This document shows positions 8,695 through 20,661 of a stretch of DNA of 46,174 nt, piece by piece. The notes below the pieces were generated by a model. The model had not been told where the DNA came from, did not search any database, and was given only the letters and a program-made list of their open reading frames with translations. Position 1 is the stretch's first letter, and each line of letters begins with the position of its first letter. Source of the stretch: a virus; IMG/VR virus record IMGVR_UViG_3300028786_000013, positions 1-46,174 of that record; one strand, written 5' to 3'. The position numbers were made by a program, and so were the translations under genes.

Positions 8695-9078
8695 ATGGAC
8701 ACCAAGCTGATGCCCGCCGTCGCCGCCCAGGTCATCGCCGAGCAGGTCAACGAGCCCGGCACCCGCCCCCTGCGTGAGGCCCGGATCTACCGCCTGCTCA
8801 CCGACGCCGGATACCCGGCCGCCGAGATCGCCGAGATGGCCAGCAAGACGCCAATGAAGATCACCATCCGCATGGAGCTCCTCGCGCTGGGCGAGGCCGG
8901 ACAAGCCGCCCTTGACAGCGGCACCATCCCGGTCGGTCTCGCCTGGTACATCGCCCGGCTGAGCGCGCCGAACCAGCAACTCGTCCTCACCCGCTGGACG
9001 CGCGGCGACTACGCCGACGCGCACGAGGCATCCGACGCCGCAGTTGCGATCTACAACGACGAAACGTCCACCGCCTGA
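8695..9078 (+). CDS. ParB/KorB-type HTH domain protein
   Basis: 127 aa; ATG with GAGGAAGAGAG upstream. Residues about 26-85 match the central helix-turn-helix bundle of ParB/KorB-family proteins: a helix followed by AGYPAAEIAEMASKTP (HTH), a recognition helix with MELLALGEAGQAALDSG, and then a helix like the IPVGLAWYIARLS segment that in ParB follows the HTH (usually ..GHAR.L..L). There is no N-terminal ParB CTPase domain and no dimerisation tail, so it is an HTH-only relative, possibly a regulator or a centromere-binding adaptor. It is a plausible reader of the GGACA-rich array at 11161-11278 or of the operators, but this is untested. Confidence 0.6.
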   Translation: MDTKLMPAVAAQVIAEQVNEPGTRPLREARIYRLLTDAGYPAAEIAEMASKTPMKITIRMELLALGEAGQAALDSGTIPVGLAWYIARLSAPNQQLVLTRWTRGDYADAHEASDAAVAIYNDETSTA

Positions 9079-9092
9079 CCCTCCCTCACCCA

Positions 9093-9112
9093 GGCGCCAG
9101 ACCTCTGGCGCC
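9093..9112 (+). terminator. Intercistronic hairpin
   Basis: 8-bp stem GGCGCCAG/CTGGCGCC with a 4-nt loop, 15 nt after the upstream stop. Member of the hairpin series in this operon. Confidence 0.5.
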
Positions 9113-9154
9113 CGGCCGGATCCCCCCCCATACCTGCCAGGAGCGGAGCCCGTC

Positions 9155-9883
9155 ATGCGCCTTTACGCCACTGCCCAGAACATCGGCGGACGCGCCGCCC
9201 AGTGCGACGCCACCGCCGTGCACACCGCACCCGACGGCGCCCGCGCGTACGTCCTCCTGGACGGGATCGGCAGCACCGAGGATGTCCGCGAGTGGACCCG
9301 CGCCGCCGCCCGCCAGCTCGCCCGTGCGGCCTCCCGCCGTGGCGACGCCGAGGCCGGCCTTCGCCACCTGTACGGCCGATACGCCGCCGACCCGGACCGT
9401 CAGGGTCCGTGGGGCTACGGGCCCAAGGCGTGCACGCTGGTGGCCGTCACCGCCCCCGGCAAGCCGATGACGATCGCCTGGTGCGGCGACGTACGGGCGT
9501 ACCTCCTCCTCGGCGGCACGCTGCGCCGCCTCACCGAGGACCACAACCTGCGCCGGGTCTACCCGCCGAACGACATCTACCCCGAGGGCGGTAACCGCAA
9601 CAGGGTCACGTCATGCCTCGGCGCCACGGCCAGCGACAAGGACGTCATGAACGAGGTGGGGCACCCGGCGATCGAGACGGCCACCGTCCACCCGGAGACC
9701 TGCCGCCTGCTGATCGTCTCCGATGGCGCGTACGAGCCGATCGAGGACAACGGCGCGACCCTCGCCGACTACCTGATCGGCACCCCGGCCGAGGCCGCCC
9801 GCGACCTCGTCGAGACGGCCGTCTCCTGGGGTGGCGACCGCCCGGACAACGCCACCGCCCTCGTCGCCGACCTGCGGCCCTGA
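9155..9883 (+). CDS. PP2C-family protein phosphatase
   Basis: 242 aa; ATG with CCAGGAGCGGAG upstream. All main PPM/PP2C metal-site motifs are visible in order: QCDA (D18), LLDGIG (D36, G37), AWCGDVRAYLL (G111, D112), LRRLTEDHNLRR (typical of the family), LLIVSDGAYE (D190) and DRPDNATAL (D231, N232). The family removes phosphate from Ser/Thr residues using two metal ions. Its length matches a stand-alone catalytic domain with no membrane or sensor part, so it should be cytosolic. PP2C genes occur on Streptomyces plasmids and integrative elements. In a phage it may counter a host Ser/Thr kinase, for example an abortive-infection kinase; that is inference. The family call is strong. Confidence 0.85.
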   Translation: MRLYATAQNIGGRAAQCDATAVHTAPDGARAYVLLDGIGSTEDVREWTRAAARQLARAASRRGDAEAGLRHLYGRYAADPDRQGPWGYGPKACTLVAVTAPGKPMTIAWCGDVRAYLLLGGTLRRLTEDHNLRRVYPPNDIYPEGGNRNRVTSCLGATASDKDVMNEVGHPAIETATVHPETCRLLIVSDGAYEPIEDNGATLADYLIGTPAEAARDLVETAVSWGGDRPDNATALVADLRP

Positions 9884-12424: not shown

Positions 12425-12467
12425 GGGCTTATCCTTCTGCGCCGCCGCCCGCGATCAAGGGATATGT
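12425..12467 (+). repeat. Leader repeat upstream of first ParB-like gene
   Basis: GGGCTTATCCTTCTGCGCCG (12425-12444) followed by AAGGGATATGT ending at 12467, 2 nt before the start codon. The same two words occur in the same order at 13494-13539 before the second ParB-like gene. TATCCT inside the first word could be a -10 box, but no good -35 is present. The repeat may be a shared promoter or 5' UTR, or may have been carried along when the gene was duplicated. Confidence 0.65.
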
Positions 12468-12469
12468 CC

Positions 12470-13330
12470 ATGCCTCAGGTCACCGCCTACGCCCGTACCG
12501 TCACCATTCCGCTCGCCGACCTCGCCCCCTTCCCCGGCAATCCCAAACGGGGCGACGTCGCGACGATCCTGGAAAGCCTGTGCCGTAACGGCCAGTACCG
12601 CGGCCTGGTCGTGCGTGAGACCGAGCCGGGCACGCTGATCGTCCTCGCCGGCAACCACACCTTGCAGGCGCTCGCCGAGCACGGCCCCGGCCCGTGCGGG
12701 GTGACCATCACCGTCGCCGACGAGGAACTGCCGTGCGCGGTCTGCCAGGGCCAGGACTGGGAGCCCGTCGCCCGCTGCGAGGTGATCACCTGCGATGACG
12801 CCGCCGCCCGCCGGATCAACCTCGTCGACAACAAGGCAGCGGACAACGGCACGTATGACGATGACGAGCTTGCCGCGGCCCTCGCCGACGTCGGTGACGA
12901 CCTGGGCGGCACCGGGTACACCGACACCGACCTGAGCGACCTCCTCGCCGCCATCGAGGAGGCGGCCGAGGAAGACGAGGACACGTACGAGGACGACGCC
13001 CAGCAGGGCGGCCAGGAGCAGGCCGCCGCCTCGTCCTCGGGCAGCGTGCTGGAAGGTGTCGCCCCGGTCGCAACCGTGCCCCCCGCGACCGACCAGCCGC
13101 CGGTACCGGCCGGGCACGTACAGATGGTGCTGAACTATGTGCCCGAGGACCGCGACGAGGCCGCCCGGCTGGTGTCCGCCGCCCGCGAGGTGATCCCCGC
13201 CGCCGGCGCCCCGGAGATCGTCCTCCGCGCGCTGCGCGCCCTCGCCGCCGTCCTGGACTGCCGACACACCCACGACCAGGTCGTGACCGTCGCCGCGCTC
13301 CTCAAGGCCGCCGGCGTCGACGACGCATGA
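12470..13330 (+). CDS. ParB/sulfiredoxin-fold protein, paralogue 1
   Basis: 286 aa. Two in-frame ATGs exist (12464 and 12470); the second aligns with the paralogue's start and leaves normal spacing from AAGGGA. Residues about 12-75 are a ParB-N/sulfiredoxin-like domain: PLADLAPFPGNPKRGD, a helix with SLCRNGQYRGLVVR, and the nucleotide-box equivalent GNHT (61-64) followed by a helix. A Cys pair CAVC (89-92) lies in the linker and a second conserved block CDDAAARRINLVDN (108-121) follows. The C-terminal part (from about 190) is an extra domain. ParB-fold ATP/CTPases of this short type accompany DNA-modification enzymes. It stands just upstream of a paralogue and two DpdA-like genes, so a role in DNA modification rather than partition is likely. 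No ParB HTH is present. Confidence 0.7.
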   Translation: MPQVTAYARTVTIPLADLAPFPGNPKRGDVATILESLCRNGQYRGLVVRETEPGTLIVLAGNHTLQALAEHGPGPCGVTITVADEELPCAVCQGQDWEPVARCEVITCDDAAARRINLVDNKAADNGTYDDDELAAALADVGDDLGGTGYTDTDLSDLLAAIEEAAEEDEDTYEDDAQQGGQEQAAASSSGSVLEGVAPVATVPPATDQPPVPAGHVQMVLNYVPEDRDEAARLVSAAREVIPAAGAPEIVLRALRALAAVLDCRHTHDQVVTVAALLKAAGVDDA

Positions 13331-13398
13331 GCACCGTCGTGACGCTCGCCCCGCCACCCGTACACCGCGCCGTCCGGAACGTCCCCGGAGCCACGTAA
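13327..13398 (+). CDS. Possible 23-aa peptide coupled to ParB-like gene
   Basis: An ATG overlaps the upstream stop by four bases (ATGA), as in all other operon junctions nearby, and opens 23 codons to a TAA just before the terminator. There is no similarity or composition test to support translation; it may be a coupled leader or chance. Confidence 0.2.
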   Translation: MSTVVTLAPPPVHRAVRNVPGAT

Positions 13399-13416
13399 CC
13401 GCCCCTCCCCGCCCCC

Positions 13417-13454
13417 GGGGAAGCCCGGCAGCCACCACCCCGCCGGGCTTCCCC
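13417..13454 (+). terminator. Terminator between the two ParB-like genes
   Basis: Perfect 13-bp inverted repeat (13417-13429 and 13442-13454) with a 12-nt loop, about 87 nt after the first ParB-like stop. It implies that the second ParB-like gene and the modification operon have their own transcript, starting near the leader repeat at 13494. Confidence 0.75.
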
Positions 13455-13493
13455 ACACGGCCGCAGACGGCCGCAAGGGGCCGAAATGCCCCG

Positions 13494-13539
13494 GGGCTTA
13501 TCCTTCTGCGCCGTTATCCGTTGCGACCAGGGGATATGT
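13494..13539 (+). repeat. Leader repeat upstream of second ParB-like gene
   Basis: Second copy of the 20-mer at 12425 (identical over 13494-13513), then AGGGGATATGT (13529-13539), which serves as the ribosome site for the ATG at 13544. Position relative to the start differs from copy 1 by only about five bases. Confidence 0.65.
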
Positions 13540-13543
13540 ACCG

Positions 13544-14254
13544 ATGGCTCAGGCAACCTACGTGCGCACCGTTCACGCCGCCCTCGACGAACTCACCCCC
13601 TTCCCCGGCAACGCCAAGCGCGGCGACGTCCCGACGATCATGGAAAGCCTGTGCCGCAACGGCCAATACCGCTCCCTGGTCGTACGGGAGATCACGAACG
13701 GCCCGCTGATCATCCTGGCCGGCAACCACACCGCACAGGCCCTCGCGCTCCACGGCCCCGGCCCGTGCGGGATCACCTTCCGTTCCGGCGGCGAGGAACG
13801 CCCCTGCGGGATCTGTCAGGGCCAGCCGTGGGACCCGAGCGCCCGTATCGAGGTCGTCACCTGCGACGACGACACCGCCCGCAGGATCAACCTCGTCGAC
13901 AACCGGTCGGCCGAGCTCGGCGACACCGACCGTGACGCCCTCGCCGAGCTGCTGTCGTACATGGATGAGGACTACGGCGGCACCGGCTACACCGAAGCTG
14001 ACGTGCAGCTCCTCATCGCCCCGCCCCCATCGCTGGACGAACTCGCCGATGCCTACGGCGACCCCGACGCATCCGACCTCTGGCCCGTCCTGAGGTTCCG
14101 CGTCTCCCCTGAAACCCGCAGCGAGTTCCTCGGTCTGACGCTGGGCTGCTCCAACCCGGGCGACGACGGCGAGCGCTTCCGGTACCTCCTCGACCTCGCC
14201 GCCACCGCCGCCGCCGCGAGCAGTGCGGGACCAGCCGGGGGAGCGCCGGCGTGA
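13544..14254 (+). CDS. ParB/sulfiredoxin-fold protein, paralogue 2
   Basis: 236 aa. The first 150 residues align closely with the protein at 12470: FPGNAKRGD, SLCRNGQYRSLVVRE, AGNHTAQAL (GNHT at 60-63), a CGIC pair, the block CDDDTARRINLVDN, and an acidic DYGGTGYTEAD strand-turn. Beyond that the two differ: this one ends in a short domain and an Ala-rich tail. The stop overlaps the GTG of the first DpdA-like gene by four bases, which couples it directly to the transglycosylases. In bacterial 7-deazaguanine DNA systems DpdA needs a partner ATPase (DpdB); this pair could fill that need, although the DGQHR motif of DpdB/DndB is not visible. Confidence 0.7.
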   Translation: MAQATYVRTVHAALDELTPFPGNAKRGDVPTIMESLCRNGQYRSLVVREITNGPLIILAGNHTAQALALHGPGPCGITFRSGGEERPCGICQGQPWDPSARIEVVTCDDDTARRINLVDNRSAELGDTDRDALAELLSYMDEDYGGTGYTEADVQLLIAPPPSLDELADAYGDPDASDLWPVLRFRVSPETRSEFLGLTLGCSNPGDDGERFRYLLDLAATAAAASSAGPAGGAPA

Positions 14255-15150
14255 CCGTGCGTGTCCTGGTCTCGTACCACTACCACCGAGACACCGACCT
14301 CGCCGCCCTCGTCGCCGAGCTGGGTGGCGACGTCGACCTGTTCGCCGACTCCGGCGCCTACTCCGCAGCCACCACCGGCGCAGCGATCAGCCTCCCCGAC
14401 TACGCGGCATGGCTCCGCCAGTGGGCACCCCTGCTGACCGTTCAAGCCGCCCTCGACGTCATCGGCGACCACGAGGCGACCGCCCGCAACGTCGACCGGC
14501 TCCGCGACGCAGGATGCGACCCCCTCCCGGTCTTCCACGTCGGCGAGCCCTGGCCCGTCCTCGAAGCGCTCTGCGCGACCAACCGGTACATCGCCCTGGG
14601 CGGCATGGCCCTGCTCGCCGTCGGCCAGGCCAAGCAACGCCCCCTCATGGCCTGGCTCGTCCGCTGCTTCCGCACCGCCGTCCCGTACGGCACGGTCTTC
14701 CACGGCTTCGGCATGACCTCCCCGGCCCTGATCCGCAGCCTGCCGTTCTACTCCGTCGACTCCAGCTCCTACCTGATGGGCCGCCGCTTCGGCCTCGCCT
14801 ACCTCTGGGACGACCCGGCCGGGAAGATCCGCAGCGTCTTCTTCCGCAACCCCGCCGAGGTCCGCCCCTACGCCGACCTGCTCCGCCGCCACGGCCTCGA
14901 CCCCGCCCGCACCATCGCCCCCGACTACCTCCGCGCCGGCACCCCCGGCTTCACCCGCGAGCGCGCCGAGCTGGGCGCGGCCTCGGCCCGCGCGTACCAG
15001 TTCATGGAACGTCACCTCACCGCCAGGCACCGCGTACCTGCCCCGCCGCTGCCCCGCGCCGACACCGAGGGAACAAAGGTCTACCTCGCCGCCTCGGCCC
15101 GCGAGGACTTCGTACCGCTGACCCTCCTCACCCCGGCCGGCCGCCCATGA
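14251..15150 (+). CDS. dpdA: DpdA-like DNA guanine transglycosylase, paralogue 1
   Basis: 299 aa, GTG start overlapping the upstream stop (GTGA). The TGT-superfamily features are visible in order: FADSGAYS (31-38), where D33 matches the base-binding/general-base Asp of the DSGG motif in tRNA-guanine transglycosylases; DVIGDHEAT; YIALGGM (113-119), equivalent to the GG loop that binds the base; HGFG (151-154); and FYSVDSSSY (167-174), where D170 matches the nucleophilic Asp. It is shorter than tRNA transglycosylases and lacks their Zn-binding C-terminus, as do the phage DpdA families. The product would exchange guanine for preQ0 (or a derivative) in phage DNA. Context is decisive: the full preQ0 pathway follows in the same operon. 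Target sequence unknown. Confidence 0.8.
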   Translation: MTVRVLVSYHYHRDTDLAALVAELGGDVDLFADSGAYSAATTGAAISLPDYAAWLRQWAPLLTVQAALDVIGDHEATARNVDRLRDAGCDPLPVFHVGEPWPVLEALCATNRYIALGGMALLAVGQAKQRPLMAWLVRCFRTAVPYGTVFHGFGMTSPALIRSLPFYSVDSSSYLMGRRFGLAYLWDDPAGKIRSVFFRNPAEVRPYADLLRRHGLDPARTIAPDYLRAGTPGFTRERAELGAASARAYQFMERHLTARHRVPAPPLPRADTEGTKVYLAASAREDFVPLTLLTPAGRP

Positions 15151-16055
15151 CGTTCCGTGTCCTGACCTCGTTCCACTACTTCCGCGACAAGCAGCTCACC
15201 GACATCACCGCCCTGTACCCCGGACCGGTCGAACTGTTCGCCGACTCCGGCGCGTTCTCCGTCGCCACCACCGGCGCCACGATCGCGCTGCCCGACTACA
15301 CGGCATGGCTCAAGGACTGGCGGGACGTCATCACCACCGCGGCGACCCTCGACGTCATCGGCGACCCCGAAGCGACCGCCCGCAACACCGACGCGCTCGA
15401 AGCGGCCGGGCTGAGCGTGCTGCCCACCTTCCACACGGGCACCCCGTGGCCCGTCCTCGAAGCGCTCTGCGCCCGGTACCGGTACGTCGCGCTGGGCGGG
15501 ATGGTGCCGTACTGGCGCCGCCCGAAAGAGCTGATGCGGTGGCTCGTCCGCTGCTTCCGGATCGCGCAGCCTCACGGGACCGTCTTCCACGGCTTCGGGC
15601 AGACCAACCGGACGTTGATCTCCGCCCTGCCGTTCTACTCGGTCGACTCCTCGACCTGGTCGGGCGGAGCGCAGTACGGCAAGGTCCGGCTGTGGGACGA
15701 CGGCCGCGGCCGCATGACCGAGTTCCAGGCCGGGGACCGCTCTGCAGTCCAACGGCACGCCACGCTGCTGCGCTCCCACGGCGCCGACCCTGTCACCGTC
15801 GCCCGCAAGGGCTTCGCGCTCAAGCCCGGCAAACCTGCCGAGGACTTCATCCGCGAGGACGCCATGATGCGCGGCACCTCCGCCGTCGCCTATCACCGCT
15901 TCGGCCAGTGGCTCGCCCAACGCCACCGTGTGCCGCCCCCGCCCGGCTGGACCAGCACCGGCACGTGCCTGTACCTGGCCGACACCCACCTCAACAACTT
16001 CGCGCCGGCCGCCCTGGCCGTCGCGGCCAACCCACGAAAGGCGCCTCGCCCATGA
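15147..16055 (+). CDS. dpdA: DpdA-like DNA guanine transglycosylase, paralogue 2
   Basis: 302 aa, ATG overlapping the upstream stop (ATGA). About half the residues match paralogue 1: FADSGAFS (D33), LPDYTAWL, LDVIGDPEATARN, WPVLEALC, YVALGGM, WLVRCF, TVFHGFG and FYSVDSSTW (D167). Both putative catalytic Asp residues are kept, so this is not an obviously dead copy. The C-terminal third diverges, with KGFALKPGK in place of the paralogue's sequence, which may change DNA specificity. Two intact tandem copies suggest either two target contexts or a hetero-oligomer, as in the two-subunit eukaryotic TGT, where however only one subunit is active. The stop overlaps queC by four bases. Confidence 0.8.
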   Translation: MTFRVLTSFHYFRDKQLTDITALYPGPVELFADSGAFSVATTGATIALPDYTAWLKDWRDVITTAATLDVIGDPEATARNTDALEAAGLSVLPTFHTGTPWPVLEALCARYRYVALGGMVPYWRRPKELMRWLVRCFRIAQPHGTVFHGFGQTNRTLISALPFYSVDSSTWSGGAQYGKVRLWDDGRGRMTEFQAGDRSAVQRHATLLRSHGADPVTVARKGFALKPGKPAEDFIREDAMMRGTSAVAYHRFGQWLAQRHRVPPPPGWTSTGTCLYLADTHLNNFAPAALAVAANPRKAPRP

Positions 16056-16732
16056 TCGCCCGGCCCCTTGCAGCCCTCGCGTTCTCCGGAGGCATGGACT
16101 CCACGACCCTTGCCGCCCACTACGCGCACCAGGGATACGACCTGCTCCTGCTGTCGTTCGACTACGGTCAGCGCCACGTACGCGAGATCGGCGCCGCCCG
16201 CCGCGTCGCCGCCCACTACCGCGCCGAACACCACGTCGTCGACCTCACCGCCGTCGGCGCCCTGATGCCCGGCTCCGCCCTCACAGACCGCGCCGTCGAC
16301 GTCCCCGAAGGCCACTACGCCGAGGCGTCGATGCGCAGCACGGTCGTCCCCAACCGCAACGCGATCATGGCGAACGTCGCCGTCGGCATCGCCTCCGCCC
16401 GAGGCGCCGCCCTCGTCGCCCTCGGTATCCACGCCGGGGACCACGCCGTCTACCCCGACTGCCGGCCCGCTTTCCTCGACGCACTCCAGGCATCGGTGAA
16501 CGCAGCCCTCGACGGCTTCCACATCCCCAGCGTGGAAGCCCCGTTCATCCACATCACGAAGACCGACATCGCCCGCCGCGCCGGCGAGCTCGATGCCCCG
16601 ATCGCCCTGAGCTGGTCGTGCTACCAGGGCGGCGCACTGCACTGCGGCCGGTGCGGCACATGCGTCGAGCGGCACGAGGCATTCACGCAGGCTGGGTTCC
16701 TCGACCCCACCGAGTACGAGGAGGTCGCGTAA
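16052..16732 (+). CDS. queC: 7-cyano-7-deazaguanine (preQ0) synthase
   Basis: 226 aa, ATGA overlap with the gene before. QueC converts 7-carboxy-7-deazaguanine to preQ0 using ATP and ammonia. The PP-loop SGGMDST is at 12-18, DYGQRH at 37-42, VVPNRNA at 98-104, and the zinc site near the C-terminus has C190, C198, C201 and C204 (SC...HCGRCGTC). Length is normal for the family. No amidotransferase domain is fused, and no QueF or archaeosine-type enzyme is seen, so the expected end product of this locus is preQ0 itself. Confidence 0.95.
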   Translation: MIARPLAALAFSGGMDSTTLAAHYAHQGYDLLLLSFDYGQRHVREIGAARRVAAHYRAEHHVVDLTAVGALMPGSALTDRAVDVPEGHYAEASMRSTVVPNRNAIMANVAVGIASARGAALVALGIHAGDHAVYPDCRPAFLDALQASVNAALDGFHIPSVEAPFIHITKTDIARRAGELDAPIALSWSCYQGGALHCGRCGTCVERHEAFTQAGFLDPTEYEEVA

Positions 16733-17178
16733 TGTCGCACGCCGTCACCGTCAGGCACAATTTCGAGACCGCGCACCGGCTCCCGCACCTGCCCGGCAAG
16801 TGCGTCAGCCTCCACGGTCACAGCTGGTGGGCCGAGATCACCGTCACCGCCCCCGCCCTGGAATCCGGGCTGGTCGTGGAGTTCGGGCCGTTCAAGCGCG
16901 CCGTACGCGTGTGGATCGACGAGCACCTGGACCACGGGGTCATGCTCGGCCCCGACGATCCCCTGCTGCCGATCCTGCGCACCCACGGCAAGGTGTACGA
17001 GGTGCCCGGCTGGCCGACGGTGGAGAACGTCGCCGCGCTCCTGGCCGACGTCGGCGCCGACGCACTCCACAAGCTGCGCCGCGCACCCGGGGCCGGGGTA
17101 ACCCGCGTCCACGTCCAGGAGACCCACGTCAACGCCGCCACCTGGAACGCCCCACGCCTCGACGGGAGCACCGGGTGA
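16732..17178 (+). CDS. queD: 6-carboxytetrahydropterin synthase
   Basis: 148 aa; TAATG junction with queC (one-base overlap). QueD turns dihydroneopterin triphosphate into 6-carboxy-5,6,7,8-tetrahydropterin. The zinc ligands H15, H28 and H30 (HGHSW) are visible, with catalytic C24 four residues before HGH, the DH pair at 67-68, PTVENVA (96-102) and the substrate-binding E130. The length is slightly above that of bacterial QueD. It supplies QueE encoded by the next gene. Confidence 0.95.
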   Translation: MSHAVTVRHNFETAHRLPHLPGKCVSLHGHSWWAEITVTAPALESGLVVEFGPFKRAVRVWIDEHLDHGVMLGPDDPLLPILRTHGKVYEVPGWPTVENVAALLADVGADALHKLRRAPGAGVTRVHVQETHVNAATWNAPRLDGSTG

Positions 17179-17909
17179 GCCCCCTCCTCGTCGACACCGT
17201 CGACACCACACAGACCCTCGTCATCGCAGAGACGTTCGGACCAACCATTCAGGGTGAGGGACCGAGCGCCGGCCGCCGCGCCTCGTTCATCCGCACCGGC
17301 GGCTGCAACCTGGCGTGCTCCTGGTGCGACAGCTCGTTCACCTGGGACGGGCGCCGCTACGACCTGCGCGCCGAACTCACCCGCACCCCCGTGACCGCCA
17401 TCACCGCCCGTGCGCTGCAGGGCGCGCCCGGCCTGGTCGTCATCACCGGCGGGGAACCCCTGCTGCAGCAGGAGCAACCGGGGTGGGCGCTGCTCCTGGA
17501 CACCCTCGTCACGGCCGGGGTCGACGTCGAGATCGAGACGAACGGCACGATCGCCCCCAGCTCCTACACCGCGGCGTCCGTGACCCGCTTCAACGTCTCC
17601 CCGAAGCTCGGGCACGCCGGTGACCCGGTGGCCCGGCGCATCCGGCCCGAGGCCCTGGCCGCGCTCCACGCCACCGGGCACGCCGTCTTCAAGATCGTGT
17701 GCGCCACCGCCGCCGACGTCGACGAGGCGGCCACCCTCACCGCCGCCCACGGCATCCCGCCGTCCACGGTGTGGATCATGCCCGAGGGCACCACAACACC
17801 CGAGCTGTGCGACCACCTCGCCGCCATCGCCGACCCCGCTATCCGCGCGGGATTCAACCTCTCCACACGGCTGCACGTGCACGTGTGGGGCGACGAAAGG
17901 GCCCGATAA
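17175..17909 (+). CDS. queE: 7-carboxy-7-deazaguanine synthase (radical SAM)
   Basis: 244 aa, GTG start overlapping the queD stop (GTGA). QueE contracts 6-carboxytetrahydropterin to 7-carboxy-7-deazaguanine. The cluster motif GGCNLACSWC supplies C44, C48 and C51 in the CxxxCxxC order of the radical-SAM superfamily. TGGEP (91-95) binds SAM. FGPTIQGEG (21-29) is the usual QueE N-terminal signature, and IETNG and VSPK are also present. All essential parts are intact. Confidence 0.95.
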   Translation: MSPLLVDTVDTTQTLVIAETFGPTIQGEGPSAGRRASFIRTGGCNLACSWCDSSFTWDGRRYDLRAELTRTPVTAITARALQGAPGLVVITGGEPLLQQEQPGWALLLDTLVTAGVDVEIETNGTIAPSSYTAASVTRFNVSPKLGHAGDPVARRIRPEALAALHATGHAVFKIVCATAADVDEAATLTAAHGIPPSTVWIMPEGTTTPELCDHLAAIADPAIRAGFNLSTRLHVHVWGDERAR

Positions 17910-17911
17910 CC

Positions 17912-18520
17912 ATGGCCACCACCACCCCGGCAACCATCGGCCCGCGCACCGCTGCAGCCGCCGCCGGCGCCTTCAAGGCCGGGATCCACGCGTGGATGAC
18001 CGTCCGCGGCCTCGACCCCTCCAGCCCGGCCCTGGCCGATACTCCCGCCCGCGTACTGCGCGCCCTCGCCGAGATGACCGCCGGATACGACGAGGACCCC
18101 GCCCTGATCCTCACCCGCACCTTCCCCGTCGACCACCCCGGCACCCCGATCGCCGTCACCGGCGTCCCCTTCACCAGCCTCTGCGAACACCACATGCTGC
18201 CGTTCACCGGCACCGCAGACATCGCCTACCAACCCGCCCTAGGCGCCCCCGTGGCCGGCCTGTCCAAACTCCCCCGCCTCCTCGACGCCTACGCCCGCCG
18301 CCTCCAGACACAGGAGGCACTCACCCGCCAGGTCACCACAGCACTGGACACCCACCTGGACACCCTCGGCACCGCCTGCGTTATCCGCTCCGAACACGGC
18401 TGCCTGGCCCACCGGGGAGCACGTAAGCCCGGCTCCGTCATGGTCACCGCCTCCTATACCGGCCGGTTCCTGGCCGACCCCCAAGCCCGCGAGGAGCTCC
18501 ACCGCCTCATGACCCGGTGA
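17912..18520 (+). CDS. folE: GTP cyclohydrolase I
   Basis: 202 aa; the ATG lies two bases after the queE stop, with CGAAAGG upstream. FolE makes dihydroneopterin triphosphate from GTP, the first step towards preQ0. The zinc ligands are C91 and H94 (LCEHHMLP) and C164 (HGCLAHRGARKP), the last in the family's HxCxxxRG block. It ends the modification operon; 91 bp follow before the terminase genes. A phage copy frees the pathway from the host folate enzyme and raises flux during infection. Confidence 0.95.
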   Translation: MATTTPATIGPRTAAAAAGAFKAGIHAWMTVRGLDPSSPALADTPARVLRALAEMTAGYDEDPALILTRTFPVDHPGTPIAVTGVPFTSLCEHHMLPFTGTADIAYQPALGAPVAGLSKLPRLLDAYARRLQTQEALTRQVTTALDTHLDTLGTACVIRSEHGCLAHRGARKPGSVMVTASYTGRFLADPQAREELHRLMTR

Positions 18521-18611: not shown

Positions 18612-19052
18612 ATGCCCGCCTCCCCTGGCCAGCGACGCACCGCTGCCCAACGCCGGAAGCAGGCGCTACAGCTCCAGCTGGCAGGCGTCGACCTCCGCAC
18701 GATCGCCGAACGGGTCGGGTACGCCGACGCCAGCGCAGCGAAGAAGGCCATCGACCGCGCGATCGAGGACAGCATCGGCCGCGACAACGCCCACGTCGAC
18801 GAGCTACGCAAGCGCGAGGTGATGCGGTACGACCGCCTACAGGCCGCCTACTGGGGCAAGGCGCTGGACGACGACCGCAAGGCTGCCGAGATCGTCCTCA
18901 AGTGCATGGCCGGCCGCGCACGGATCCAGGGCACCGAGGCACCGACCCGCGTGAACCTGGACGCCCAGCGCCTCGCAGACGAGATCCTCGCGCTCTTGGA
19001 CGAGGACCCCGAGGAGCCGCCAGGGGTGGAGCCCGGTGGCGACGACACCTGA
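18612..19052 (+). CDS. terS: Terminase small subunit
   Basis: 146 aa; a strong GAGAGGGGGA site lies eight bases before the ATG. Residues about 10-55 form a helix-turn-helix (ALQLQLAGVDLRTIAERVGYADASAAKKAIDRA, read in pieces), the DNA-recognition domain of small terminases. A central helical oligomerisation region follows (60-110), then an acidic tail that should contact the large subunit. It overlaps the large terminase gene by 17 bases, the usual arrangement. First gene of the virion module. Confidence 0.75.
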   Translation: MPASPGQRRTAAQRRKQALQLQLAGVDLRTIAERVGYADASAAKKAIDRAIEDSIGRDNAHVDELRKREVMRYDRLQAAYWGKALDDDRKAAEIVLKCMAGRARIQGTEAPTRVNLDAQRLADEILALLDEDPEEPPGVEPGGDDT

Positions 19053-20661
19053 GATCGAGCGGCAGATCCAGGAGCTCGTGCGCGCGGGGGACGTCCAGGC
19101 CCTGCGCTTGGTGCGGGACAAGGTCCAGCGCAAGCGCACCCGCAAGACCTCGCGGCGCAGCATCCGGTACATGCGCGATCCGGCCGGGTGGGCGAGGGAC
19201 GTCATCGACTGGGGCGACGGCAACGGCCTGACGCCCTACCAGAACGACATCTTCGACGCGCTCCCGGTCCGGCACCGCGTGGCCGTACGCGGGCCGCACG
19301 GCCTCGGGAAGACCGGCATGGCGGCGATCGCTGTCCTGTGGTTCGCCACCACCCGCGAGGCCGCCGGGATCGACTGGAAGATCATCACGACCGCCTCGGC
19401 GTGGCGGCATCTCTCGGTCTACCTGTGGCCCGAGATCAAGAAGTGGTCCAGGCGCATCAAGTGGGACGTCCTCGGCCGGCCGCCGTTCTCCGAGCTGACC
19501 GAACTGCTGATGCTGAACCTCAAGCTCGACAACGGGGCGGCCTCGGCGGTCGCCTCGCACAAGCCCGAGCTGATCGAGGGTGCGCACGCCGACTCCCTGT
19601 TCTACCTGATCGACGAGGGCAAGGTCGTTCCCGATGGGACGTGGGACGCCATCGAGGGCGCGTTCTCCGGCGGCCGTACCGATGGCCTGCCCGAGGCCTT
19701 CGCGTTGGCCATCAGCACCCCGGGGCCGCCCGCCGGCCGGTTCTACGACATCCACAAGCGCGCCCCTGGCCTTGAGGACTGGTGGACCCGTCACGTCACC
19801 CTCGCCGAGGCCATCGCCGCCGGCCGGATCTCCCCGGAATGGGCGGAGCAGCGCGCCCGCCAGTGGGGCGTCGACTCGGCGATGTATGCGAATCGCGTCC
19901 TCGGCGAATTCCAGGCCAGCGACGAGGACAGCGTCATCCCCCTGGCGTGGGTAGAGGCGGCCATCGACCGGTGGCACCAGTGGGACACCGACGGACGGCC
20001 GCCGCTGGACGGGCGGCGGTACACCGGCGTCGACGTCGCCCGCTTCGGTGGGGACTCCACCGTCTTCGCGCACCGCCACGGCGTCGCCATCACGGAGCTG
20101 GAGTTGCACGACCGCGAGGACACGATGCAGACCACCGCGCGGGTACAGGCAGCCACCGGTACCGGGGACGCCGCGCGGGTCCCGGTGGTGGACTCCATGG
20201 GCGTGGGCGGCGGCGTCGTCGACCGGCTCCGCGAGCTGGGCGTTCCGGTGCTGGCTTACACCGGCGCGGCCAAGACCAAGGGCAGGACGCGTGACGGCGA
20301 ATGGGGGTTCAACAACTGCCGGTCGGCGGCCTACTGGCGGCTGCGTGAGCTCCTCGATCCGGCCTTCGACGCGCGGCTCATGCTGCCCCCGGACGAACTC
20401 CTGATCTCCGACCTCACGACCCCCACATGGGACGTGACCACCGGCGTGCCACCGAAGATCAAGGTCGAGGCGAAAGACAGCGTGGTCGCCCGGCTGGGCC
20501 GCAGCCCCGACCGGGGCGACGCCGTGGCTATGGCGATGTTCGCCGAGTCGCTCGCCGCGTCCTCGCTCCAGTCCCCGGCCAAGCAACGCGAGCCCGGCAA
20601 GACATCCGTCGCGGCGCAGCGGTACGGCCGCCCGATCACCGGCGGCGGCGGGGGCAGGTGA
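19036..20661 (+). CDS. terL: Terminase large subunit
   Basis: 541 aa, GTG start within the end of the small subunit gene. ATPase motor: Walker A RGPHGLGKT (85-93), Walker B LFYLIDEG (188-195) with D193/E194, and the coupling motif around AISTPG (225-230). RNase H-like nuclease: D333 in GVDVARFGGD, D386 in VVDSMGVGGG, and D492/D495 in SPDRGDAVAM. All key residues are present. It cuts and translocates phage DNA into proheads. If the phage DNA carries 7-deazaguanine, this enzyme must accept modified DNA. Confidence 0.95.
   Translation: MATTPEIERQIQELVRAGDVQALRLVRDKVQRKRTRKTSRRSIRYMRDPAGWARDVIDWGDGNGLTPYQNDIFDALPVRHRVAVRGPHGLGKTGMAAIAVLWFATTREAAGIDWKIITTASAWRHLSVYLWPEIKKWSRRIKWDVLGRPPFSELTELLMLNLKLDNGAASAVASHKPELIEGAHADSLFYLIDEGKVVPDGTWDAIEGAFSGGRTDGLPEAFALAISTPGPPAGRFYDIHKRAPGLEDWWTRHVTLAEAIAAGRISPEWAEQRARQWGVDSAMYANRVLGEFQASDEDSVIPLAWVEAAIDRWHQWDTDGRPPLDGRRYTGVDVARFGGDSTVFAHRHGVAITELELHDREDTMQTTARVQAATGTGDAARVPVVDSMGVGGGVVDRLRELGVPVLAYTGAAKTKGRTRDGEWGFNNCRSAAYWRLRELLDPAFDARLMLPPDELLISDLTTPTWDVTTGVPPKIKVEAKDSVVARLGRSPDRGDAVAMAMFAESLAASSLQSPAKQREPGKTSVAAQRYGRPITGGGGGR

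Follow-up and report, generated by a model that had tools for sequence, protein, structure and literature searches.

Here, we analyzed a DNA modification locus in the IMG/VR virus record IMGVR_UViG_3300028786_000013. This linear virus contig has 46,174 bases and is hereafter referred to, in its entirety, as the window. Judged by its gene content and order, the locus is an operon of the Rosebush type for dPreQ0 in which dpdA, the gene for a DpdA-like transglycosylase (TGT), is duplicated; that the operon serves to place a 7-deazaguanine in DNA we regard as close to certain. In the interpretation that we favor, and that as a whole appears probable to us, one of two ParB-like proteins, ParB2, would serve as an adaptor, both DpdAs would be active, and one of them, TGT1, would have diverged in specificity. 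The observations recorded in an initial annotation of the locus are confirmed and its interpretation is supported in part. All eight genes were confirmed on the plus strand, at positions 12470-18520 of the window and upstream of the terminase, and their assignment to families, judged from the profile matches given below, is far beyond chance:

12470-13330, plus strand: ParB1, ParB/sulfiredoxin (Srx) fold with a tail of non-DpdA type (phrog_723, 4e-48; score of -1 bit for the DpdA-type tail, or D-tail)
13544-14254, plus strand: ParB2, ParB/Srx fold with a DpdA-type C-terminal tail (phrog_723, 6e-44)
14251-15150, plus strand: TGT1, DpdA-like DNA-guanine transglycosylase with an altered pocket loop (phrog_887, 2e-46)
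15147-16055, plus strand: TGT2, DpdA-like transglycosylase with the canonical GGMVP loop (phrog_887, 9e-47)
16052-16732, plus strand: QueC, 7-cyano-7-deazaguanine synthase of 226 aa without a Gat domain (PF06508, 2e-59; TIGR00364 above cut-off)
16732-17178, plus strand: QueD (PTPS, PF01242, 2e-23; phrog_2389, 6e-37)
17175-17909, plus strand: QueE, radical SAM protein with CxxxCxxC (Radical_SAM, 1e-8; phrog_2076, 3e-65)
17912-18520, plus strand: FolE, GTP cyclohydrolase I (PF01227, 1e-52)

FolE-QueD-QueE-QueC is the established route from GTP to preQ0, and with DpdA the gene set of the dPreQ0 type is present in full. The four biosynthetic enzymes are complete, as the initial annotation had stated, by their families and by active-site motifs that can be read in the sequence: SGGMDS and C..HC..C..C in QueC, CNLACSWC in QueE, and CEHH...C in FolE. 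The second ParB is indeed coupled to the first transglycosylase by a 4-bp overlap, and overlaps of the same length join TGT1 to TGT2, TGT2 to QueC, and QueD to QueE; the start of QueD lies within the stop of QueC, and a gap of 2 bp separates QueE from FolE, after which the terminase genes follow. QueF was found neither in the window nor in 10 related records of 45-115 kb, and the QueC of the window carries no Gat domain, ArcS having had no separate search. Thus far, preQ0 is supported as the expected base at this locus, in agreement with the earlier prediction. In Rosebush DNA, 28% of G is dPreQ0 (PMC6884629, Table 2), and deletion of dpdA abolishes dPreQ0 in phage CAjan (PMC6884629).

The two transglycosylases are ~51% identical to each other and share phrog_887 with CAjan DpdA (~1e-46 for each TGT), to which TGT1 aligns directly with 34% identity over 189 aa (E 5e-27). 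Residues D33, D69, H96, G117, H151, and D170 are invariant in 55/55 aligned relatives, so that the catalytic Asp pair reported earlier (D33/D170 in TGT1, D33/D167 in TGT2) stands; the offset of 3 residues between the two copies is due to an indel in the pocket loop. In alignment, D33 falls within the DSGGF motif of Escherichia coli Tgt, and in a profile comparison with that enzyme the DSG motif alone was aligned. When the 55-member profile was compared with the PDB, the top match and sole relevant solved protein was 7ui4 (E 0.004), a 'DNA-guanine transglycosylase' in which GGMVP, H..G, and S.DS line up with the profile. The predicted structure of TGT1 (pLDDT 95.5) is of alternating beta/alpha type, and its best match in BFVD is the DpdA-like protein of Sonali (TM 0.84), with that of Megan also near and R9TGF0 of phage nt-1 lower in the ranking. 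The tRNA TGT family PF01702 has no match in the window and matches all of the 14 control genomes. TGT2, used as the sole protein query, found no relative in viral contigs. Both TGT copies evolve under purifying selection, with dN/dS of 0.12-0.34 in close pairs, and, on the conserved residues and this constraint, we consider it quite likely that both DpdAs are active.

The copies differ most conspicuously in one loop:

14599-14637, plus strand: TGT1 pocket loop GGMALLAVGQAKQ, confined to the 6-member TGT1 clade and absent in all other copies

TGT1 and its five orthologues (6/6) have the loop GG[ML]AL[HL]AVG.AKQ (aa 117-129 in TGT1), 3 residues longer than the GGMVP loop, together with Tyr174, whereas in TGT2 and its relatives the loop is GGMVP and residue 174 is mostly Trp. 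Given that the bacterial DpdA 7ui4 likewise has GGMVP, TGT1 would be the derived copy. Depending on whether the base is guanine or preQ1, the Leu231/Ala232 peptide of Z. mobilis Tgt flips; pocket size is set by Val233, and the Leu231-Ala232-Val233 loop governs base recognition (PMC3660597). The differences in the loop and at residue 174 make it probable that the two enzymes do not read the same thing; as a statement about specificity, for sequence context or for base, this is tentative, and we place it slightly below even. An independent hint comes from loci lacking QueC, which have a GKLLGNP-type loop in 6/6 cases with a readable loop, all in one clade, and QueC loci read G, which suggests that the DpdAs of the QueC-lacking loci handle a base other than preQ0. 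QueC is missing in L005 (2043-2468), L022, L032, L036, L038, L094, and L137, where the DpdA loops are GKLLGN-type; in those that were inspected, a small conserved open reading frame (ORF) occupies the place of QueC. Mycobacterium phage Typha likewise combines a GKLLGNP loop with the lack of QueC, and its predicted base would be dCDG or another without a nitrile. For the single DpdA of CAjan, Kot et al. reportedly described two motifs, GA and GGC, in 2020.

ParB1 and ParB2 are 61% identical, and both have a GNHT box that in alignment takes the place of GERR in chromosomal ParB. The model of ParB2 (pLDDT 93) matches the CDP/CTP-bound ParB 6sdk (1.2e-5), PadC, and sulfiredoxin, placing it in the ParB-N fold and bearing out the fold proposed for it at the outset. 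What distinguishes ParB2 is its C-terminal tail:

14024-14197, plus strand: D-tail of ParB2, SLDELADAYGDP..DLWPVLRFRV...LL, recognized by a hidden Markov model (HMM) built from eight isolate phages only

This HMM scores 35 bits on ParB2 (E 1e-10). The tail was found in 31/50 ParBs at TGT loci and in 0/89 elsewhere (Fisher 3e-18), and the association persists after dereplication at 60% identity (16/28 vs 0/36, p 6e-8); the TGT-locus ParBs that lack it nearly all belong to a distant group in which ParB is downstream. A ParB lies within 800 bp of the TGT in 39 of the 65 loci with both flanks, upstream in 22, downstream in 16, and between in 1, and the 4-bp ParB/TGT overlap recurs in most D-tail loci. 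Conversely, a zinc-ribbon tail is present in 7/10 ParBs linked to C5-methyltransferases (C5-MTases), by the pattern used, and among 77 loci gathered by ParB homology, many N-domains are fused to N-methyltransferases or stand beside C5-MTases. The confinement of the D-tail to dpdA loci, with other ParB tails following other partners, is new here, and we consider it likely that ParB2 is the partner of DpdA. That the ParBs are dedicated partners, as initially suggested, thus fits ParB2, which is coupled to DpdA and carries the D-tail, but not ParB1, which has no D-tail and whose type occurs without DpdA and is therefore not specific to it; ParB1 as the partner of the second DpdA was rejected on these grounds. 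ParB1-type proteins are found in CmoX phages and beside GP88 (PF17338) in L022, L038, L095, L124, L126, and others, and GP88 may be another ParB-linked DNA-modifying enzyme. ParB-type genes adjoin GP88 also in L125, L137, L141, and L160, and in L038 (1465-3096) a ParB1-type frame continues into the GP88 domain, maybe through a frameshift or as a true fusion. The idea that ParB-fold proteins replace DpdB is not new, ORF1 of phage CRB2 having already been proposed as a DpdB homologue (PMC6392294).

The same N-domain occurs fused to DUF6610 (PF20314), directly before QueC-QueD-QueE-FolE and hence where dpdA stands in other preQ0 operons, in L199 (identical to L152; 5025-5648), L200, L201, and L202, and no other TGT was detected in the fetched sequence of these loci. 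Mycobacterium phage Rinkes encodes such a fusion (gp1; L203, 1-1302) plus a DpdA. In halovirus HCTV-5, free DUF6610 (gp68; L204, 6737-7852) is the neighbor of FolE within a preQ0 cluster, and DUF6610 is encoded by HVTV-1 as well. The invariant Asp residues of DUF6610 in F.D and VS.D.N and its HLLGG motif resemble the F.DS, YSVDS, and HGFG motifs of DpdA; a profile comparison with the TGTs was not significant (probability <1%), with H..G and S.D in register. DUF6610 is thus a candidate transglycosylase, perhaps the unrecognized DpdA of HVTV-1, the DNA of which carries dPreQ1 at ~30% of guanines. No DpdA had been recognized in HVTV-1 in 2019; Cui et al. reportedly named a DpdA4 of archaeal viruses in 2023, which may be the DUF6610 family.

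The arrangement of two TGTs with two ParB-like proteins, initially held to be the novelty of the locus, proved less singular. Among the 34 comparable loci, that is, those with a D-tail ParB, one such ParB accompanies one TGT in 19 (1x1) and two TGTs in 10 (1x2), two D-tail ParBs accompany one TGT in 3 (2x1) and two in 2 (2x2), so that dpdA is in tandem in 12/34 and ParBs and DpdAs do not vary together in number. The window itself counts as 1x2 because ParB1 lacks the D-tail. Paired genes of the kind sought in other phages do exist in the two 2x2 loci, L022 and L137, but a single D-tail ParB is the rule where TGTs are in tandem. Tandem TGTs are already deposited in Megan and occur in many contigs; in the tree, they have several separate origins, those of Megan and of L013 (order TGT-ParB-TGT) being sister pairs. 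L011 and L012 are ~97% identical on both flanks of the TGT2 site, yet L011 has TGT1 alone, with no other TGT in its 78-kb record. In Sonali, gp81 (L007, 2990-3607) is annotated as a second DpdA-like protein and has no Pfam match and only an unnamed PHROG. On tandem dpdA or on the function of ParB-DpdA, the literature yielded only the remark on CRB2.

Several other explanations have to be weighed. Along the lines initially proposed, two ParBs and two TGTs in one block could represent two matched ParB-DpdA pairs, each with its own target, or a TGT1/TGT2 hetero-oligomer that is obligate and has ParBs dedicated to it, and the two 2x2 loci would be in line with such pairing. However, the ten 1x2 and three 2x1 loci, the type and tail of ParB1, and L011, with TGT1 alone between flanks nearly identical to those of L012, make this improbable, and L011 led us to reject the obligate heterodimer. 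Two target contexts as such, also suggested initially, may still apply. The same pair of loci can be read in favor of the second DpdA being a redundant duplicate that raises dosage with unchanged specificity, TGT2 being present in one and absent in the other, as can the repeated origin of tandem copies; given the retention of the distinctive pocket loop in 6/6 members of the TGT1 clade, the purifying selection on both copies, and their divergence to ~51% identity, we find this explanation possible but somewhat unlikely.

Alternatively, the ParBs could have nothing to do with modification and belong to the terminase region, with a role in partition, packaging, or regulation, as might be indicated by a leader common to the parB genes and by the proximity of the locus to terminase, seen in the window and also in cluster B mycobacteriophages. 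This, too, has little probability, considering that the ParB-DpdA pair of Finch and Sonali is not followed by terminase genes, that fusions join ParB domains to DNA methyltransferases and to DUF6610, and that the type of tail varies with the partner enzyme. Finally, annotators often call such genes queuine tRNA-ribosyltransferase, which raises the prospect that the phage enzymes contribute to queuosine in the tRNA of the host and not to DNA modification. With no PF01702 match in the window, two host genomes with relatives of the locus (Streptomyces and Kutzneria) entirely devoid of a PF01702 TGT, and the nearest characterized relatives modifying DNA, this is hardly credible, and a boost of tRNA queuosine was rejected.

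Some findings weigh against the operon with ParB2 as adaptor and a diverged TGT1 as we reconstruct it. The window is a 46-kb fragment, and a tailoring gene may lie elsewhere. Searched against the PDB with Foldseek, the TGT1 model retrieved generic TIM barrels only, none named a TGT. The equivalence of the pocket loop with that of bacterial Tgt comes from the register of the GG motif, not from superposition, and the correlation of loop type with QueC reflects a single clade and one event. The CAjan-like EC151 and CAjan itself have no ParB near DpdA, and the DpdA of 9g modifies plasmid DNA on its own (PMC6884629); ParB is thus not universally needed.

In the reconstruction with ParB2 as adaptor, FolE, QueD, QueE, and QueC would make preQ0 from GTP, and the DpdA-type enzymes would swap it for some guanines of the double-stranded phage DNA, an exchange that has been shown for CAjan and with which Rosebush agrees. 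The ParB-fold N-domain of ParB2 most likely handles DNA, and its D-tail, to go by gene fusion and by the association between tails and partners, most likely docks DpdA. After duplication of dpdA, both copies would have been kept active, TGT2 with the ancestral pocket loop and TGT1 with an alteration in the loop that would read the 7-substituent and in the residue four positions after the nucleophile, so that their specificities probably differ; ParB1 would be another protein of adaptor type, without specificity for DpdA. The genes, their motifs and conservation, the association of tails with partners, the fusion, and the variation in copy number are observed, and the modification of DNA, docking through the tail, and differing specificities are inferred from them. 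Phages resist host restriction with 7-deazaguanine and other bases, and a broader conjecture, which we hold with low confidence, is that the ParB fold of actinophages is a shared adaptor chassis for DNA-modifying enzymes of unrelated chemistry (DpdA, DUF6610, and C5-carboxymethyl- and N-methyltransferases) in which the C-terminal module encodes the partner, and that duplicated dpdA genes with different loops write two marks, distinct in context or base, through one adaptor. The role of ParB beside DNA-modifying enzymes was stated to be unexplained in the 2025 paper on carboxymethylcytosine, where ParBc proteins are frequent and of unknown function (PMC12783734). The rule that links tail to partner, with the fusion of ParB to DUF6610, leads to a concrete hypothesis, namely, that the enzyme is docked by the tail. 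The determinants of DpdA specificity, in turn, could be sought in the two DpdAs of the window, a natural pair whose pocket loops have diverged.

The surroundings of the locus include a repeated leader and the terminase:

12426-12443, plus strand: 18-bp leader GGCTTATCCTTCTGCGCC, ~27 bp before the parB1 Shine-Dalgarno
13495-13512, plus strand: exact repeat of this leader, ahead of parB2
19036-20661: terminase large subunit

The first copy coincides with the start of the locus, 12425, in the initial annotation. Across all fetched loci, leader variants (up to 3 mismatches) were seen upstream of parB genes only, and an Rfam scan at the parB leaders returned no riboswitch, only chance matches. A leader of 16-18 bp, CTTATCCTTCTGCGCC, is conserved also in L094, L095, L011, L012, L022, L036, L038, L124, and L125. 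For ParB1, the Shine-Dalgarno spacing is better for ATG 12470 than for 12464. Relatives of the locus, probably prophages, are present in chromosomal contigs of Streptomyces sp. Ag109_O5-1 (L191) and Kutzneria viridogrisea (L192), and a Streptomyces-like host is therefore likely. Positions 9044-9883 of the window show a weak match to PP2C phosphatase (5e-6).

Among known systems, the closest in layout is that of Rosebush, for which we used Hedgerow, both belonging to the species Rosebushvirus rosebush. Hedgerow shares with the window the order ParB-DpdA-QueC-QueD-QueE-FolE-TerL, the 4-bp ParB/DpdA overlap, and a D-tail ParB, but has a single DpdA, ~34% identical to TGT2, and a single ParB, where the window has an extra one of each. 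CAjan encodes a homologous DpdA with the same motifs as TGT1, but only one, and has no ParB nearby. Megan (NC_073368) resembles the window in its tandem DpdA-like gp2 and gp3, upstream ParB-like gp1, preQ0 genes, and terminase, and differs in having one ParB and an independent duplication, as well as a QueC of 455 aa, the N-terminal extension of which resembles a glutamine amidotransferase domain; its base is therefore probably dG+. The bacterial DpdA-DpdB system likewise combines a TGT-fold transglycosylase with a protein of the ParB superfamily, DpdB, described as a ParB-like ATPase (PMC12839542), but ParB2 of the window reads GNHT where the nucleotide box is GERR, and no DpdC-type gene was recognized at the window locus.

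TurkishDelight, a Streptomyces phage, has an orthologous ParB pair (gp121, ~53% identical to ParB1; gp122, 67% identical to the N-domain of ParB2) and a related terminase, with 77.6% identity in the terminase region. There, however, a C5-MTase (SPPC), an AsnB-like ligase, and a CmoA-like MTase, the set of the carboxymethylcytosine pathway (PMC12783734), replace the DpdA/preQ0 cassette. ParBs precede this C5-MTase/AsnB-like/CmoA-like set in L003 (7009-12019, TurkishDelight gp121-125), L123, L127, and L188, likely a carboxymethylcytosine/amide cassette in a comparable position. In line with the exchange of partner enzymes, the tail of gp122 is a zinc ribbon rather than the D-tail.

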